Source of the DNA: an uncultured Alphaproteobacteria bacterium | GTDB lineage: Bacteria > Pseudomonadota > Alphaproteobacteria > Micropepsales > Micropepsaceae | Reading direction: 5' to 3' | Assembly (NCBI GenBank): GCA_902826695.1 | Contig: CADEFU010000002.1 | Location: 62,001 to 126,000, forward strand | Length of the DNA stretch: 64,000 nt | Shown here: piece after piece, positions 38,959-50,645 of the stretch | Layout of the letters: the number at the start of each line of letters is the position of its first letter | Numbering within the stretch: the stretch's first letter is position 1 | Position numbers and translations under genes: made by a program | Notes under the pieces: model-generated | What the model saw: only the letters and a program-made list of their open reading frames with translations | Told to the model about the DNA's origin: nothing | Databases searched by the model: none

Positions 38959-38988
38959 CCCTGGGAGCGCCGGCGTCCCGCCGGCTCT
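38959..38988 (-). repeat. REP-like repeat, family II, copy d
   Basis: On the minus strand it reads AGAGCCGGCGGGACGCCGGC followed by GCTCCCAGGG. Its first bases overlap the TAG stop of the DUF5615 gene (38987-38989). Confidence 0.78.
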
Positions 38989-39313
38989 AGGGTTCCGGGA
39001 ACGACAGTTCGGTGTATGTGCCCGGCGTTAGAGTTGCCACCGATTGGGCGACCGCATCTGTGTGATTGCGAATCTTCCGCCAATCGGTCGTTGGCAAGAC
39101 CAAGATCGCGAGCGTGCGGCCGTCGAGATTCTGTTGGTGGCGGATGTGGCGGTCCGTGGTGATGAGCGCCTCGAACCCGGCCGCTTCGGCGGCTGTTAGC
39201 AGTTCGCCGTTCCGCAACGTCTGCCATCCGCGCTCGAACGTGGTGGCAACTTCATGCGCGCCCAAGGCATTTCGAAGCGGAACGGGCGTGCCTTGGTCGA
39301 ACAGAATCTTCAC
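38987..39313 (-). CDS. DUF5615 PIN-like protein, probable toxin
   Basis: A 108-residue protein matching the DUF5615 (Mut7-C/PIN-like) pattern: KILFDQGTPVPLRNAL, then ALITTDRHIRHQQNL and ILVLPTTDW. The conserved Asp residues (in FDQG and TTDR) are those expected for a PIN-like nuclease site. It starts at GTG 39313, seven bases after a DUF433 gene. The pair is a predicted toxin-antitoxin system, and the toxin probably cleaves RNA. The stop codon lies within a family II repeat, suggesting the repeat was inserted there or the gene end was reshaped. Confidence 0.8.
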   Translation of the reverse strand: MKILFDQGTPVPLRNALGAHEVATTFERGWQTLRNGELLTAAEAAGFEALITTDRHIRHQQNLDGRTLAILVLPTTDWRKIRNHTDAVAQSVATLTPGTYTELSFPEP

Positions 39314-39320
39314 GCGGGCT

Positions 39321-39539
39321 TCACGCGAGTTCAAGACTGCGTTGAGCGTGCTCGAGCACGGCATCGACTTGGGCATGCTCGACGCCTGGAAACCAGGCCA
39401 GAAACTCATCGACCGTTGCGCCGCCTTCGATGTTCTCGAACAGGGCCTTCACCGGCACGCGCGTTCCTTTGAAAAGCCAGGCGCCGCCGACTTTTCCGGG
39501 AATCCGCTCGACCGCGGGACACTGCGACCAGTCGATCAT
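39321..39539 (-). CDS. DUF433 domain protein, probable antitoxin
   Basis: A 72-residue protein with the DUF433 core: WSQCPAVERIPGKVGGAWLFKGTRVPVKALFENIEG in shortened form CPAVERIPGKVGG ... KGTRVPV, and a VDEFLAWFPGV helix-turn-helix-like end. DUF433 proteins commonly precede DUF5615 toxins and probably bind DNA. MIDWSQ at 39539 fits the family start; a longer frame to 39575 exists. No clear ribosome site. Confidence 0.78.
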   Translation of the reverse strand: MIDWSQCPAVERIPGKVGGAWLFKGTRVPVKALFENIEGGATVDEFLAWFPGVEHAQVDAVLEHAQRSLELA

Positions 39540-39589
39540 GCGGGTTAAGGTGGTGCGATTGCCGCGGAAATGCAAGCGGCCGTCACGGT

Positions 39590-39904: not shown

Positions 39905-40336
39905 TCATCCGCCGCCCAGTTGACGGACGCGAGCAACGCCTAGCATAGCGAATCCAAACAGCGCGACACCGAGCGGAATGTGGACCCACATGAGGTTGGC
40001 GCCCTCTGTCGAGGACTTGCCTACTGCCGTCTGGATGACGAGCACCACCCCCAGCGACAACAGCGTGAAACCAAGTTTCGGTCCGTTCGGGACGCGGCGT
40101 AGAGAGACGAGGGCGGAGAGGCCCGCGGCGAGCGTCGACGCGATCAGAACAAAGGCATTCAGCGAGTGCGCCCTGTGACCCCAATCGACGCCGGGCAACA
40201 TGAGACCGGCGAACACTGCCTGCGCGAATATAGCGGTGGCCAGCACTCCGGCGATGATGCTCCACCTTAGCCGCAAGCTGCGAGCGGGCTTGCTGGGTTC
40301 CGTTGCCGAGTCCGAGTGGACGGTTGCGGTACTCAT
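39905..40336 (-). CDS. four-segment membrane protein of unknown function
   Basis: A 143-residue protein with four predicted transmembrane segments (IIAGVLATAIFAQAVFAGLML, AFVLIASTLAAGLSALVSL, LGFTLLSLGVVLVIQTAVG and IPLGVALFGFAMLGVARV). HRAHSLNAF between segments 1 and 2 and MWVHIPLG before segment 4 carry conserved-looking histidines, as in DUF6220-like or haem-binding small membrane proteins. I cannot assign a function. It is 232 bases downstream of the VOC gene; that gap shows no feature. Confidence 0.65.
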   Translation of the reverse strand: MSTATVHSDSATEPSKPARSLRLRWSIIAGVLATAIFAQAVFAGLMLPGVDWGHRAHSLNAFVLIASTLAAGLSALVSLRRVPNGPKLGFTLLSLGVVLVIQTAVGKSSTEGANLMWVHIPLGVALFGFAMLGVARVRQLGGG

Positions 40337-40568: not shown

Positions 40569-40961
40569 TCACCTGAAGGCCGCGGGTTGGAAAAGTTCGA
40601 CAACGTTGCCCGAAGGATCTTGGAGTAGGATCTGCTTGCCGCCGGGGCCTTCGAGGATATCGTTTCGAAACCGCGCGCCGGCGGCGCGAAGGCGGGCGAC
40701 TTCGGCATGGATGTCGTCGACGATGAGGTGAATGCGGTTCCAACCGCCGGGCCCGGGTTTCGCGCCGTCCGGCATAGGCCGCCCGGCGGAGCTGGCCGGT
40801 CCGCTCAGCAGCAGCCGCAACTTGCCGCGCGCAACGTCGGCGAAGGCGGGCGGAAAGTTGGTCAAAACGTCAAAGCCAAGAATTTTCGTGTAGAAGGCGA
40901 CCGCCTTCTCAACGTCGTCGACCATGTAGCGGACGCTCACCATATCACTGTGCTTGGTCAT
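40569..40961 (-). CDS. VOC family protein (glyoxalase-like)
   Basis: A 130-residue vicinal-oxygen-chelate fold protein with two beta-alpha-beta-beta-beta modules (VRYMVDDVEKAVAFYTKILGFDV and IHLIVDDIHAEVARLRAAGARF ... LLQDPSGNVVELFQPA). The terminal Glu (VVEL) is a typical metal ligand. It has no Cys, which excludes the ArsI C-As lyase type despite the arsenic context. ATG 40961 follows GGGAGAG. It is the third gene after the ArsR-ArsC fusion. Confidence 0.85.
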   Translation of the reverse strand: MTKHSDMVSVRYMVDDVEKAVAFYTKILGFDVLTNFPPAFADVARGKLRLLLSGPASSAGRPMPDGAKPGPGGWNRIHLIVDDIHAEVARLRAAGARFRNDILEGPGGKQILLQDPSGNVVELFQPAAFR

Positions 40962-40984: not shown

Positions 40985-41365
40985 TCAGTCGCGGATCGCG
41001 TGCGCCAGCGCGATCACAAAAGTATGGCTGCCCCCGGTGACGATGACCGTCCCTCCCTGGTTCACCACGGTGAGCTGCTGCTTGGTAAGCACCACATCGT
41101 GTGCGTGAAACAGGGCGCTCGTTGACAGGAGCTTCACGCCTCGTGGTGGCGGGACATGCAGAACCGCATAGGGAATCAGAAGCTCATGCGTATGGGGTAC
41201 GAATCCGTGACCTGAGCGGATGGCTAGGCTTGCGGCGCTTGGCACGCCTCCCGATGCGTGCGCCATCGAAGACAAACTCTGAACGGTCAGGAGTGCGCCG
41301 CCGACGCCCTTGATGAACCCTCTTCGGTCCGTTTTGATCTCGCTGTGGTGGTCGCGCATGTTCAT
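40985..41365 (-). CDS. Tat-exported protein with paired histidine motifs
   Basis: A 126-residue protein with a twin-arginine signal (TDRRGFIKGVGGALL, cleavage near AHA37). The mature part has HTH (58-60), HAH (87-89) and SHTF (about 113), each preceded by hydrophobic strands, so a metal-binding role is plausible. I recall similar short proteins with repeated GHxH-type motifs but no established function. It lies 13 bases after the ArsR-ArsC fusion and 23 bases before the VOC gene, so all three probably share a transcript. Confidence 0.7.
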   Translation of the reverse strand: MNMRDHHSEIKTDRRGFIKGVGGALLTVQSLSSMAHASGGVPSAASLAIRSGHGFVPHTHELLIPYAVLHVPPPRGVKLLSTSALFHAHDVVLTKQQLTVVNQGGTVIVTGGSHTFVIALAHAIRD

Positions 41366-41378
41366 ACCCTGGTTCCCA

Positions 41379-42149
41379 TCAGGTGGACGGTTGATCGCTA
41401 AGCCCAGCGAGCAAGAACTCGATGCGCGTCGCCAGTTCGGCGGCCGTTTGCCGGAACAGCTTGTAGGTGATGCGGTCGGATTCGCCGGTCGCGGGGTTCG
41501 CGATGCTCCAGTGGATGACCTCGGGGCGGCCGGGGAATTCGGGGCACACCTCGCGCACCCGATCGCACAAGCTGATCACCCAGTCGAAGCGCTGGTCAGC
41601 GAACACGTCCATGTGCTTGGACCCATGACCGCTAAGGTCGAGGCCGTATTCGTCTCGCATCACCCGCACGGCATTGGGGTGCAGTGGCTTGGGGTCGCTG
41701 CCGGCGCTCACCGCTTCGATGGCGCCACCCGATCGTGCCTTGATGAGCACCTCGGCCATTTGCGAGCGCGCGCTGTTGCCAGTGCAAAGGAACAGAATCT
41801 TCATCGGGCTGATCCGGGAGTGGTCACGCGAGGTAGGCTTGAGGCGGAGAGCAGGGTGCAATGCCCCCCCGGCGGCTGAGAGCTCTGCACCGATACGCGC
41901 CAGATCTGCTGTGTAGTAAGCATCCCGCCGATCGGCGGAACTCTGCCGCGCGGAAACCAGGCCGCCATCACGCAGCTTGCCAAGGTGATACGAGACGAGG
42001 TTCTGCGGTTCGCCGACCAACTCGGTCAACTCGTGCACGATGCGATCGCTCCGCGCGAGTTCACTCAGGAGGCGCCATCGCACCGGGTGCCCGGCTAGCT
42101 GCAGGAACTCAAACGGAGCGACTGTGCTGGCAGGATGATGTGGTCCCAT
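41379..42149 (-). CDS. ArsR-family regulator fused to ArsC-type arsenate reductase / LMW phosphatase
   Basis: A 256-residue fusion. Residues 1-100 form a winged-helix ArsR domain (AGHPVRWRLLSELARSDRIVHELTELV, QNLVSYHLGKLRDGGLVSARQ), and residues 116-250 a low-molecular-weight phosphatase fold with the P-loop FLCTGNSARSQ (C122) and a late Asp in GRPEVIHWSIANPA. Such fusions are known. The ArsR part contains no Cys, so it cannot bind arsenite through a Cys triad as classical ArsR does. The ATG lies where a leaderless transcript could begin, just after a candidate -10. Confidence 0.88.
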   Translation of the reverse strand: MGPHHPASTVAPFEFLQLAGHPVRWRLLSELARSDRIVHELTELVGEPQNLVSYHLGKLRDGGLVSARQSSADRRDAYYTADLARIGAELSAAGGALHPALRLKPTSRDHSRISPMKILFLCTGNSARSQMAEVLIKARSGGAIEAVSAGSDPKPLHPNAVRVMRDEYGLDLSGHGSKHMDVFADQRFDWVISLCDRVREVCPEFPGRPEVIHWSIANPATGESDRITYKLFRQTAAELATRIEFLLAGLSDQPST

Positions 42150-42162
42150 GTCGGACTACATA

Positions 42163-42198
42163 CATCAAATTCATTAGATACGTCAATATCATTTGATG
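42163..42198 (-). promoter_or_regulatory. dyad and promoter upstream of the ArsR-ArsC fusion
   Basis: CATCAAAT (42163-42170) and ATTTGATG (42191-42198) form a perfect 8-bp inverted repeat around a 20-base spacer. On the minus strand the spacer holds TTGACG as a -35, and TATGTA follows about 18 bases later, about ten bases before the ATG. The dyad therefore brackets the promoter, as expected of an autoregulated repressor site. Confidence 0.55.
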
Positions 42199-42214
42199 AA
42201 TAATATCACAGCGA

Positions 42215-47352: not shown

Positions 47353-48204
47353 ATGCCGGAATTGCCCGAAGTCGAAACCGTGCGCCAGGGGCTCGTCCCC
47401 GTGCTTGAAGGGCGCAAATTCGCCCGCGTGATCCAGCGGCGTGGCGATTTGCGCTTCCCGCTGCCGGCGAAGTTTGCCGAACGGTTAACAGGGCGGCGGG
47501 TCGAGAAGCTGACGCGGCGGGCGAAATACATCCTCGCGCATCTCGACGGCGGTGAGGTTCTGATCATGCATCTGGGCATGTCGGGGCGGTTCTCGATCGA
47601 GGGCGCGAAGGTCGGGCGCTTCGTTCATGCAACGCCGGAGCCCGGCAAGCACGATCACATCGTGTTCGAGACGGACAAGGGCGCGCGCGTGACGTTTACG
47701 GATCACCGGCGTTTCGGGATGATGGATCTGTTCAAGGCTTCGGACGAGGCGACCTACAAGTATTTGGCCGCGCTTGGGCCGGAGCCGCTGTCGCGTGCGT
47801 TTTCACCGGCGACATTGGACGCGGCGCTTGCGGGTAAGCGTACGCCGATCAAGGCCGCTTTGCTCGATCAGCGCGTGGTGGCGGGGCTTGGCAACATTTA
47901 TGTGTGCGAGGCGCTGTTTCGTGCCGGGATTTCGCCGAAGCGGCTTGCGTCCTCCGTCGTGGGCGAGCCCTCGCGAAAGCTGGTGCCCGAGATAAAGGCG
48001 GTGCTGCGCGCGGCGATCAAAGCCGGTGGGTCGACTTTGCGCGACTACAAGCAGACGAGCGGTGAGCTTGGCTATTTCCAGCATAACTTCCTGGTTTACG
48101 ATCGCGAGGAAGAGCCGTGTTTGAAGAAGGGCTGCAGCGGTGTCGTGCGGCGGATCGTGCAATCGGGGCGATCGACGTTCTTTTGTCCGACGTGTCAGCG
48201 TTAG
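47353..48204 (+). CDS. mutM: formamidopyrimidine-DNA glycosylase (Fpg)
   Basis: A 283-residue base-excision repair enzyme that removes 8-oxoguanine. It begins with the catalytic PELPEVETV (Pro2 and Glu3), keeps the Lys in GRKFARVI-type loop and the RRAKYI region, and ends in a zinc finger with four Cys (CLKKGCSG ... FCPTCQR). The TAG overlaps the TAA of the convergent aquaporin gene by four bases. Confidence 0.96.
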
Positions 48205-48845
48205 CGGTCGCTCAGCAGCTTTGTTGCTCCAATCGCAAGGACAAGGCCGATCAATTGTGCGGCGAGAAAGCCCGGGACCGACGCGGGCGCGATCCCTGAG
48301 AAGGTGTCGGTTACCGAACGTGCCAGCGTGACGGCCGGGTTCGCGAAGGACGTCGATGACGTGAACCAGTACGCGCCAACGATGTAGGCGGCCACTGTCG
48401 TGGGGACGGCCTCGGGTCTTGTGCGCGCGGTGCCCCAGATCGTGAGGAGCAAGCCGGTCGTGGCGACGATCTCGCCGATGAGTTCACCGGTGCTGGCACG
48501 CACATGTTGCGATGCCTGCACGATCGGGAGCGCGAACATCGCGTGGGCGACGACGACACCGGTGATGGCGCCTGCGATGTGGGCGGGAACATAGAGGATC
48601 ATGTCGCGCCATGGCGTTCGGCCTGACATGCACTCGAAGAGCGTGACCGCGGGGTTGAAGTGTGCGCCGGAGATCGGCGCGAAGATCGTGATCAAGGCGA
48701 TCAGTGCGCCTCCGGTCGCCACGGCGTTCGCGAGCAGCGCCACGGCGTCGTTTCCTTGCGCGAGGCGCTCGGCCATGATGCCGGAGCCGACAACGGCAAT
48801 CAAAAGAAACGCGGTGCCGAGAGCTTCGGCGAAGGCGCGGCGCAT
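48201..48845 (-). CDS. MIP-family aquaporin/glycerol facilitator, probable arsenite channel
   Basis: A 214-residue channel with six membrane segments and the two NPA motifs ([11 protein letters not shown] and [10 protein letters not shown]). Its position as third gene of an arsR-arsC operon, with its ATG overlapping the arsC stop (TAATG), matches AqpS-type channels that let arsenite leave the cell after ArsC reduces arsenate. No ArsB/Acr3 pump is next to it, which makes the channel the only visible exit route in this operon. Confidence 0.88.
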
Positions 48846-49330
48846 TAGACGGGTCCAATCTCGCTGATGCGTTCGGCTAGGTTCGATGTGCCGGCCGGGA
48901 GTGCGATCAAACGATCAATCGCTTGGCGAATGTCGGCAAAGATATCCATGAACGCTTTGCGCCGCTCGGCCTCGCTGCCTTGTGCGGCGGCTGGGTCGGG
49001 GAAGCTCCAGTGCGCCTTCACCGGCGCGCCGGGCCAGATGGGGCAAGACTCGGCCGCAGCGTTGTCGCAAACGGTGATCACGATATCCATGCGCGGGGCG
49101 CCCGGCGCCGCGAACTCGTCCCAGCTCTTGGAGCGCGCGCCGGCGATCGGGATGCCTGCAGCGCGCAAGGTTTCGAGCGAGAGCGGGTGGACTTCGCCCT
49201 TTGGGATGCTGCCAGCGCTGAACGCACGAAAGCGGCCCTGCGCGGAATGGTTCAAATACATCTCTGCCAAAATGGAGCGTGCCGAGTTGCCGGTGCAGAG
49301 GAACAGCACGTTTTGCGTGGAAGTGGCCAT
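48845..49330 (-). CDS. arsC: arsenate reductase, LMW phosphatase type
   Basis: A 161-residue ArsC with the P-loop VLFLCTGNSARS (C12) and the late catalytic Asp in HWSFPDPAAAQG. It reduces arsenate to arsenite using thiol donors. It lies 29 bases after arsR and overlaps the aquaporin start. It is clearly distinct from the ArsC half of the fusion at 41379, so the window encodes two arsenate reductase modules. Confidence 0.9.
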   Translation of the reverse strand: MATSTQNVLFLCTGNSARSILAEMYLNHSAQGRFRAFSAGSIPKGEVHPLSLETLRAAGIPIAGARSKSWDEFAAPGAPRMDIVITVCDNAAAESCPIWPGAPVKAHWSFPDPAAAQGSEAERRKAFMDIFADIRQAIDRLIALPAGTSNLAERISEIGPV

Positions 49331-49359
49331 TTCACGCCTATCGGCTAGACGGATTTGGG

Positions 49360-49713
49360 CTAGGCGCGGCGACGTGCGCGGGCAGTCGGTTCACTGGATT
49401 TCTCCTTGGGTTTGGTTACGGCACATGATCCGCCTGCGCAGCAGTTCTGGGTCAGGAAGTCGATGACGGCCCGCATGACGTCGTAGTTGGCGGTGTAGGT
49501 CAGCGAGCGGCCGTCGCGGGTCGCGGCGACGAGGCCCGCATGCTTCAGCTGAGCGAGATGGAACGAGAGCGTGGGAGCGGGGAGGCCGAGCTTGTCGCCC
49601 AAGTACGTGGGCGTCAGGCCGCCACGGCCCGCCTGAATAAGGGCGCGGAAGACCGCGAGGCGATGGTCCTGGGCGAGCGCTTCTAAAGCGACGATCACAC
49701 TCTTTGATTCCAT
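49360..49713 (-). CDS. arsR: ArsR family arsenic-responsive repressor
   Basis: A 117-residue winged-helix repressor (ALAQDHRLAVFRALIQAGRGG, PAPTLSFHLAQLKHAGLV). Its tail has a Cys cluster CCAGGSC (about 90-97) like those that bind arsenite in some proteobacterial ArsR proteins. A perfect dyad lies three bases upstream of ATG 49713. A longer open frame to 49875 crosses the promoter and is not used. Confidence 0.92.
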   Translation of the reverse strand: MESKSVIVALEALAQDHRLAVFRALIQAGRGGLTPTYLGDKLGLPAPTLSFHLAQLKHAGLVAATRDGRSLTYTANYDVMRAVIDFLTQNCCAGGSCAVTKPKEKSSEPTARARRRA

Positions 49714-49715
49714 AG

Positions 49716-49748
49716 TTCCATAAATATGGAAGTATCTTAGCCTGTCAA
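49716..49748 (-). promoter_or_regulatory. ars promoter with ArsR operator
   Basis: The dyad TTCCAT-AAAT-ATGGAA (49716-49731) overlaps the -10 region (about 49720-49726). A consensus -35 TTGACA, as TGTCAA on this strand, lies at 49743-49748 with 16-17 bases between. The start codon is only 6-7 bases beyond the -10, so the transcript is probably leaderless. Confidence 0.7.
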
Positions 49749-49868
49749 GTTCGCGTTGTGCGGTGTCGGGGGAGCTTGCGCGTGGCATGGGCGCATCCCT
49801 GCGCTTGGCCACTGGTGCCGGGCCGGTGCTTGAGCTAAACCGCTCGCGAAATTTGAGGCGGTGCTTCC

Positions 49869-50645
49869 ATGACATTCGAAACGATCAAGACCGAGATGCG
49901 CGGCGCGGTGTTGCTGATCACACTGAACCGGCCACAGGCGCTAAATGCGTTGAACGCGCACCTGGTCGGAGAACTGGCGAAGGCGCTTGAGCAAGCCGAG
50001 GCGAATGCCGGCGTGCGCGCGGTGGTGCTGACCGGATCGGAGAAGGCGTTTGCGGCCGGCGCGGACATCAAGGAGATGCAGCCGAAGAGCTATGCGCAGA
50101 CTTACAGCGAAGATCTCTTTGGCGGGTTTCACGACCGATTCACGGCGTTTCGCAAGCCGGTGATCGCTGCCGTGTCGGGCTTTGCGCTGGGCGGCGGGTG
50201 CGAGCTTGCGATGATGTGCGATTTCATTATCGCCGCCGACAACGCAAAGTTCGGGCAACCTGAGATCAAGTTGGGCGTTATGCCCGGCATTGGCGGCACG
50301 CAGCGGCTCACGCGCTTTGTCGGCAAATCGAAGGCGATGGAAATGTGCCTGACCGGGCGTTTTATGGATGCCGCTGAGGCAGAACGCTCGGGGCTTGTGA
50401 GCCGGGTGGTGCCGCTCGCCGAATTGGTGAACGAGGCGATGAAGGCTGCCGAGACAATCGCAGAGATGTCTTTGCCCATCGTGATGATGACGAAAGAAAC
50501 GATCAACCGCGCTTACGAGACCACCCTTGCTGAAGGTGTCAGGTTCGAGCGGCGGCTTTTCCACTCAATGTTTGCGACCGCCGACCAGAAGGAAGGCATG
50601 AACGCGTTTGTCGAGAAGCGGAAAGCCAAGTTTGAGCACCGGTGA
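49869..50645 (+). CDS. enoyl-CoA hydratase/isomerase family protein
   Basis: A 258-residue crotonase-fold enzyme. AFAAGADIKEM forms the first oxyanion-hole segment, followed by GFALGGGCELAMMCDFIIA and KLGVMPGIGGTQRL; these contain the usual catalytic Glu positions. It is the fourth gene of the conserved ubiB-ubiE-mutM-echA-rpsT order and probably acts in short-chain beta-oxidation. The ars operon is inserted before it. Confidence 0.92.
   Translation: MTFETIKTEMRGAVLLITLNRPQALNALNAHLVGELAKALEQAEANAGVRAVVLTGSEKAFAAGADIKEMQPKSYAQTYSEDLFGGFHDRFTAFRKPVIAAVSGFALGGGCELAMMCDFIIAADNAKFGQPEIKLGVMPGIGGTQRLTRFVGKSKAMEMCLTGRFMDAAEAERSGLVSRVVPLAELVNEAMKAAETIAEMSLPIVMMTKETINRAYETTLAEGVRFERRLFHSMFATADQKEGMNAFVEKRKAKFEHR

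Follow-up and report, generated by a model that had tools for sequence, protein, structure and literature searches.

An ArsR-ArsC fusion linked to a VOC gene, with a cysteine-free regulator half and a candidate sensor in its ArsC half

Arsenite-sensing ArsR repressors build their As(III) site from two or three cysteines in the regulator domain, and a repressor of this type that has none raises the question of how its signal is perceived. The question is posed here by a gene within a 64,000-nucleotide stretch of contig CADEFU010000002.1 (the window), from an uncultured alphaproteobacterium of the Micropepsaceae, in which an ArsR-type winged-helix half is fused to an ArsC half (Table 1). A sequence-only reading had noted that the first 115 residues of the fusion contain no cysteine, and this is borne out with a slightly longer stretch: the only cysteines of the protein are C122, C195, and C202, all within the ArsC half, and the first 121 residues are therefore cysteine-free. 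The window protein thus lacks the cysteine site of arsenite-sensing ArsR, having no cysteine at all in its regulator half; by contrast, the stand-alone ArsR encoded in the window carries C145, C146, and C151. The same reading had offered the ArsC half as the possible sensor, and the analysis supports that half as a candidate, since it is conserved and thiol-bearing while no thiol site of the arsenite type exists in the regulator half. Judging from the alignments described below, the ArsC half is probably the sensor, and its ligand is perhaps arsenate or a similar oxyanion, which is put forward as one ligand candidate beside phosphate, phosphotyrosine, and electrophiles.

Both halves of the fusion are recognizable. 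The regulator half matches the Pfam families HTH_5 (residues 22-66, 31.1 bits against a cut-off of 22) and HTH_20 (residues 20-65, 29.8 bits against a cut-off of 27), which identifies an ArsR/SmtB-type winged helix-turn-helix by Pfam, and its NCBIfam match to HTH_metalloreg (residues 14-71, 43.7 bits) lies under the curated cut-off of 55. In the ArsC half, residues 118-225 match Pfam LMWPc and residues 118-244 match NCBIfam arsC_pI258_fam at 85.9 bits, under the equivalog cut-off of 174.3. In the structure model, confidence is high over the ArsC half (pLDDT 89-97 across ten-residue blocks 111-240) and low over the regulator half (block pLDDT 35-59). The top solved matches of the model are Deinococcus indicus ArsC2 (8p5n/8p6m), Bacillus subtilis ArsC (1jl3), and pI258 ArsC; no tyrosine phosphatase ranks above 13th. 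With these thioredoxin-coupled enzymes the window ArsC half shares the fold and the C10/C82/C89 triad; it differs in being fused to a repressor, in the Asp-to-Asn replacement of its branch, and in scoring below the NCBIfam equivalog cut-off. The range given in the sequence-only reading was 41379-42198, of which the reading frame takes the part up to its ATG and the remaining 42150-42198 is promoter. A frameshift or a chance reading frame is ruled out as the origin of the fusion by orthologues 50-77% identical to it, including those of Parvibaculum, Nonomuraea, and Microlunatus.

Table 1. Features of the fusion locus and of its surroundings, in window coordinates.
Feature	Position	Strand	Basis or remark
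ArsR-ArsC (LMW-phosphatase fold) fusion protein, 256 aa	41379..42149	-	ORF, ATG at 42149; Pfam, NCBIfam, orthologues
ArsR-type winged-helix DNA-binding half, residues 14-84, Cys-free	41898..42110	-	Pfam, NCBIfam, Cys positions
ArsC half, residues 116-248, thioredoxin-coupled ArsC fold	41406..41804	-	Pfam LMWPc, structure matches, model
C122 codon, P-loop nucleophile (CTGNSARS)	41784..41786	-	kept in 47/47 family domains
C195 codon, equivalent to ArsC C82	41565..41567	-	present in 48/48 loci
C202 codon, equivalent to ArsC C89	41544..41546	-	lost in 7/48 loci
N218 codon at conserved Asp position	41496..41498	-	Asn in 6/6 window-branch members
Distal operator dyad (predicted) ATTCATCAAATGATATTGACGTAT, 1 mismatch	42178..42201	-	pattern match, orthologue motif
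Proximal operator dyad (predicted) ACGTATCTAATGAATTTGATGTAT, 3 mismatches, right arm perfect	42160..42183	-	pattern match
-35 candidate TTGACG, within distal dyad	42181..42186	-	by eye, orthologue promoter comparison
-10 candidate TATGTA, 7 bases before ATG	42157..42162	-	orthologue promoter comparison
126-aa ORF between fusion and VOC	40985..41365	-	twin-arginine-type start DRRGFIKG, by eye
VOC (glyoxalase/bleomycin-resistance) protein, 130 aa, conserved partner	40569..40961	-	Pfam, orthologous loci
Small membrane-type protein	39905..40336	-	by eye; no Pfam match
Stand-alone arsenic-type set	48201-49875	-	~6 kb from fusion
Stand-alone ArsR	49360-49875	-	
Stand-alone ArsC	48845-49330	-	
Stand-alone MIP channel	48201-48845	-	

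A scan of the genome collection yielded three full-length orthologues, from a Parvibaculum MAG (77% identity), Nonomuraea (54%), and Microlunatus (50%), and a search of 61 related genomes returned three more in addition to the window's own fusion. With a seven-row alignment as query and matches accepted at E 1e-40 or better, the window's class then gave the fusion in 4 of 385 genomes, the window genome counted; it was present in 11 of 396 genomes of the phylum of Nonomuraea, and in 30 of 120 genomes of its family, the Nonomuraea genome being counted in both of the latter tallies; one further locus was taken from a Nonomuraea gerenzanensis record. The resulting set comprises 48 loci; the cut locus L128 has neither regulator half nor P-loop, which leaves 47 ArsC domains. 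Six loci form the alphaproteobacterial branch of the window (the window itself, L001, L060, L061, L062, and L083). The Parvibaculum locus (G355, the same place as G419) was assigned to the window's class by the class search, and genomes reached through G417 are treated as Actinomycetota from the lineage of the N. gerenzanensis record search.

The alignment of fusions for cysteine content, as proposed by the sequence-only reading, gives a divided answer. Adjacent cysteines in the regulator half, as in the classical arsenite site, occur in none of the 48 orthologous loci, and where two cysteines precede the P-loop (6/48) they are never neighbors. A single cysteine is nevertheless common: the column of window residue 86 holds one in 37 of the 48 loci, all from the actinobacterial sets, and is without it in 11, namely the six branch loci, L097, L104, L106, L127, and the cut L128. 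Within the branch, L001 has a cysteine two residues past this column. A regulator half devoid of cysteine is accordingly true of the window protein and is a trait of its branch, the general trait being the lack of an adjacent pair.

The active site of the ArsC half is better preserved. Alignment equates C122, C195, and C202 with C10, C82, and C89 of thioredoxin-coupled ArsC, so that the window protein has the CX5R P-loop (C122, R128) and the complete cysteine triad of pI258-type ArsC; the earlier remark that the ArsC half keeps C122 was correct and left out the other two. In such enzymes, arsenate is attacked covalently by C10, and the reaction passes on to C82 and C89 while the structure changes (PMC6193951); an arsenite complex of C15A pI258 ArsC is among the solved structures (1lju), and the fusion has alanine at the position corresponding to C15. 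Across the family, C122, N125, R128, and C195 are kept in 47/47 domains, and N125, R128, S129, and the HW motif do not vary, while C202 is missing from L002, L003, L096, L099, L125, L126, and L129. The conserved aspartate of pI258-type ArsC is absent from the window fusion, which has N218 at a position that corresponds by alignment to D105 of pI258. The aspartate at this position serves as general acid, and its loss gives substrate trapping in the phosphatase family. It is present in 53 of 54 stand-alone ArsC domains, the remaining one having a gap, and in 29/29 other fusions from the alphaproteobacterial search.

Upstream of the gene, the orthologues share the motif ATnCATCAA-N6-TTGATGTAT, found shortly 5' of the start codon with at least 14 of 18 positions matched at 44 of the 48 loci. 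Mononucleotide shuffles reach maxima of only 10-13 (200 shuffles per region), and the predicted operator is therefore more than chance; at this threshold it was not found upstream of the fusion in L125, L126, L127, and the cut L128. In 31 of the 44 loci, the distance from the start of the best dyad to the start codon used is 33-34 bases, and in the others it is 18-55. All six window-branch loci have two dyads 18 bases apart, and L092, L106, and L110 also look tandem by eye; the proximal dyad of the window lies where most other members have their single dyad. The 8-bp dyad that had been described around the -35 box is real and lies where it was placed, CATCAAAT (42191-42198) and ATTTGATG (42163-42170) bracketing TTGACG with a 20-bp spacer, yet it is not an element of its own: the repeat consists of the left arm of the distal dyad and the right arm of the proximal one, that is, the outer arms of tandem operators. 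ArsR/SmtB regulators bind a dyad overlapping their own promoter, and the dyad conserved upstream of the fusion gene is a putative site of this kind. The -10 candidate of the window is a poor match, and a consensus promoter scan reported no minus-strand promoter at the fusion; L001, by contrast, has a perfect TATAAT whose end is six bases from the ATG, which makes a leaderless transcript likely. With its candidate 7 bases before the start codon, the window transcript would be leaderless or nearly so.

The full operator pattern is sparse. When it was searched in 10 genomes with up to three mismatches allowed, every match with two or fewer lay at a fusion promoter, Microlunatus (G418) having a match with three mismatches only. 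The inner 12-base pattern is found in five places of the window genome at up to one mismatch, including its one exact copy at C16:57655, away from the fusion, and three other one-mismatch places elsewhere; the reversed control gives one place. That the fusion also controls the stand-alone ars set about 6 kb off is unsupported, as the full pattern has no match there at two mismatches or fewer.

The gene that accompanies the fusion, to which the sequence-only reading made no reference, encodes a VOC protein; this gene adjoins the fusion in 40 of the 48 loci, 39 times downstream on the same strand and once divergently (L003). The VOC gene is absent from eight loci at E 1e-3 (nine at E 1e-6), and two of the eight, L103 and L127, have fewer than 400 bases of downstream sequence. 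With its start extrapolated from the alignment, it overlaps the end of the fusion in 28 of the 39 loci, in 23 by four bases; in the window, the two are separated by 418 bases occupied by a 126-aa reading frame that contains several histidines and found no match among 40 related genomes. In alignments spanning 100 residues or more, the VOC proteins of 37 other loci are 58-86% identical to that of the window. As operator matches with two or fewer mismatches lie only at the fusion promoter in the 10 genomes searched and the VOC gene is present in 40/48 loci, fusion and VOC appear to make up a unit of two genes that represses itself and has a single target. L001 and L061 likewise encode homologues of the small membrane-type protein behind their VOC genes. 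Separately, four of the eight VOC-less loci (L096, L099, L125, and L126) are also without C202, and L125 and L126 lack VOC, C202, and operator alike; these four are possibly a diverged or decaying branch. Elsewhere in the window (38987-39575, minus strand), a DUF433 protein (39321-39575, Pfam) overlaps a 140-aa frame without Pfam match, and we take the two to resemble a toxin-antitoxin-type pair.

VOC metal sites follow a 2-His-1-Glu pattern, to which ArsI/CadI-type lyases add a cysteine pair. The window VOC has no cysteine, and by eye its residues at the metal-ligand positions are S9, R76, and E122, so that both marks of such a lyase are missing. Glyoxalases (CadI) are included in Frankia ars operons, according to PMC4531530, but the cysteine-less window protein looks to be of a different type. 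The VOC structure model, made with four sequences, has a mean pLDDT of 68.8. By eye, no efflux or methylation gene was seen among the reading frames at six orthologous loci or beside the window fusion, and the unit at these loci thus appears to lack what would make it a canonical ars operon.

The fusions closest to the VOC-linked family are found in a different setting. In a FastTree phylogeny of 132 ArsC domains, rooted at the midpoint, all 47 VOC-type domains cluster together (support 0.781), and the cluster is sister to fusions of Rathayibacter (L133) and Arthrobacter (L157), with a joint support of 0.916. These two were plasmid matches, as were those of Sphingobium and Shinella, which are not annotated as fused. 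Like the window protein, the sister fusions have no cysteine before the P-loop (by eye for Arthrobacter), but they are shorter (222 and 224 aa), and both have leucine at the C89 equivalent, where the window protein has C202. A divergent aquaporin gene is adjacent, among ArsR-, ArsC-, or LMW-phosphatase-type genes, and their compact dyad, ACTCAGTCAA..TTGAGT, differs from the window operator. It stands directly before the ATG, between fusion and aquaporin genes (L133 4881-4955, L157 4381-4450).

A further 29 fusions are placed elsewhere in the tree among ArsC domains that stand alone; the group, 50 domains in all, is weakly supported (0.533). As the VOC-type fusions and these 29 lie apart, at least two fusion events are suggested. 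Fusions head gapdh-arsJ operons, which handle arsenate itself, at 22 loci or more: seven on named plasmids and 15 in genomes, the latter being among the best 30 matches of the class search. The full-length matches G372:C23, G280:C38, and G216:C1 fall outside this count, as does L196, where gapdh and arsJ accompany an unfused 110-aa ArsR frame; since the L131 and L187 proteins are identical, the 22 loci give 21 distinct proteins. These fusions, from Cereibacter, Tistrella, Paracoccus, and others, resemble the window's in joining ArsR to ArsC and differ in their arsenate-type operon and in their place in the ArsC tree. Among the matches listed, the regulator-half CC pair is missing from 8 of the 22 (7 of 21 distinct) and kept in 14, from which it follows that fusion does not require the loss of arsenite sensing, and a general rule that fusions lose the arsenite site is ruled out. 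The 29 ArsC domains of the gapdh-arsJ search set (the 22 and seven others) keep all three cysteines and the aspartate. Eight gapdh-arsJ fusions and L202 have the P-loop motif CT[HRQ]NSARS, with neither Gly nor Ala in third position. The operon heads of L205-L212 have both the regulator-half CC pair and the ArsC triad, and may possibly be reduce-to-sense regulators.

It can be hypothesized from these features that the fusion is an autoregulated ArsR-type repressor whose ArsC half receives the signal, a mechanism to which, taken as a whole, we give a probability of about 0.48. Its points of departure are read from sequence, namely the fusion, the cysteine inventory, the intact P-loop and triad, the operator with few close copies elsewhere, and the VOC linkage; what we infer from there is that the protein represses and dimerizes, which ligand it binds, that this ligand is trapped, and that binding is coupled to release from DNA. 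In the absence of signal, the repressor, probably dimeric, would occupy the tandem dyads over the -35 and -10 elements through its cysteine-free winged-helix half, silencing both the fusion's promoter and the downstream VOC gene. C122 would attack whatever enters the ArsC pocket and reacts with the P-loop thiolate, be it an arsenate-like oxyanion or some other group, after which a C122-C195(-C202) relay would rearrange the ArsC half and take the repressor off the DNA. In the window branch, the Asp-to-Asn replacement would make turnover slower and prolong the bound state, much as in phosphatases that trap their substrates. DNA release would be coupled through either the disulfide relay or trapping.

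Several observations favor this mechanism. The ArsC triad provides the sole thiols of the window protein, and across the family the ArsC residues are more constant (C122, N125, and R128 in 47/47, C195 in 48/48) than the best regulator-half cysteine column (37/48). The setting of cysteine-free sister fusions among arsenic-type genes, together with the intact P-loop, argues for arsenate as the signal, and a seemingly separate fusion lineage heads gapdh-arsJ operons. Against it, the VOC partner is not an arsenic gene and does not itself point to arsenic, arguing instead for a toxic small molecule as the signal; the window already has its stand-alone arsR-arsC-MIP set; the column-86 cysteine of the other members could, in a dimer, supply two thiols; C202 is lost in seven loci; the regulator half is modeled with low confidence; and an exact copy of the 12-base pattern lies elsewhere in the genome.

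The VOC partner leads to the alternative that survives best, although we hold it unlikely: the ArsC half would no longer be related to arsenic and would act as a thiol-redox or electrophile switch through a C122/C195 disulfide or adduct, with the VOC protein binding or detoxifying the compound. The window VOC profile is nearest to Rv0577, to several glyoxalase/bleomycin-resistance entries, and to bleomycin- and mitomycin-binding proteins, relatives of known structure that fit such a role. A VOC match was present in 25 of 296 sampled actinobacterial genomes (27 places), with the fusion also at 7 of the 27, and the fusion-free relatives have, by eye, a TetR-like (L163), PadR-like (L165), or MarR-like (L169) neighbor or none; no ars gene was seen beside them among seven loci inspected by eye. 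That no efflux gene was noticed in the conserved unit, and that C122 and C195 are retained where C202 is lost, would likewise suit a thiol switch. The invariance of N125, R128, S129, and the HW motif over 47 domains, however, goes beyond what a bare thiol switch needs, and the sister fusions are situated among arsenic-type genes.

It is also conceivable, though we consider it distinctly improbable, that the two halves function independently, the ArsC half as an ordinary arsenate reductase and the ArsR half as a sensor of some other ligand at a non-thiol site. Cysteine-free regulators are common in the ArsR family, and 90% or more of the aligned rows share H98 and P99 in the regulator half. Outside the window branch, moreover, the D105 position is Asp in 37 of 41 members (Asn in three, Glu in one) and C202 is retained by 34 of 41; yet the aspartate is replaced in all six members of the branch itself, and a reductase without efflux would raise arsenite, with no exporter seen by eye in the unit. 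Least probable of all, and very doubtful, is classical arsenite sensing through a hybrid site drawn from ArsC cysteines, Cys86, or both, with arsenate acting only after reduction, which the column-86 cysteine of 37/48 loci and the CC-keeping gapdh-arsJ fusions (these could read arsenite made by their own ArsC half) would accommodate, but which meets no such cysteine in the six window-branch loci and a single cysteine per chain that is weak for As(III).

Signal reception by the ArsC half, the reading we prefer, can be placed beside known systems. ArsR-ArsC fusions have been described from Leptospirillum ferriphilum, Microbacterium, and Sinorhizobium (PMC6205960), and the actinobacterial ArsC clusters C4 and C7 include such fusions (PMC6514093). 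In the available portions of both accounts, they are presented as arsenic resistance genes, unlike the VOC-linked unit of the window, and regulator-half cysteines, an operator, or a VOC partner are not mentioned. The ArsR of Vibrio cholerae (VC1068) acts at an arsenate-inducible gapdh-arsJ (var) operon, and its authors propose As(V) sensing (PMC9601151); the available portion describes a repressor with an altered arsenite site, as an ArsR and not as a fusion. By analogy, VC1068 supports arsenate sensing in gapdh-arsJ-type operons, without being proof for the window clade. A literature search, mainly of freely accessible papers, led us to recognize no account of the VOC-linked fusion unit, its operator, or its cysteine pattern, and no description of a cysteine-free ArsR-ArsC sensor. 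Fusions of this kind are thus already known, and what appears to be new is the VOC-linked unit with its operator and cysteine pattern.

A bolder version of the preferred reading, which we regard as rather unlikely, could be speculated: the window protein would be a one-component sensor of arsenate, a repressor devoid of arsenite thiol sensing in which the fused reductase has become a substrate trap through the Asp-to-Asn change and reads the oxyanion directly, with one VOC resistance gene as target, and the turn from enzyme to sensor would have been taken in at least two fusion lineages. In relatives with both pockets, the fused reductase would make arsenite and the regulator half would read it. 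Cysteines are what the classical arsenic repressors of bacteria use to read arsenite, and a repressor that reads arsenate through a recruited reductase domain would differ from them. If true, this would explain how arsenate-export operons could be controlled without making arsenite, would offer a ready-made arsenate biosensor, and would present a change from enzyme to sensor with visible intermediates, in which the CC pair is kept, one cysteine is left, or none. The VOC unit, with its very few operator copies, would provide a small, testable, self-regulated system.
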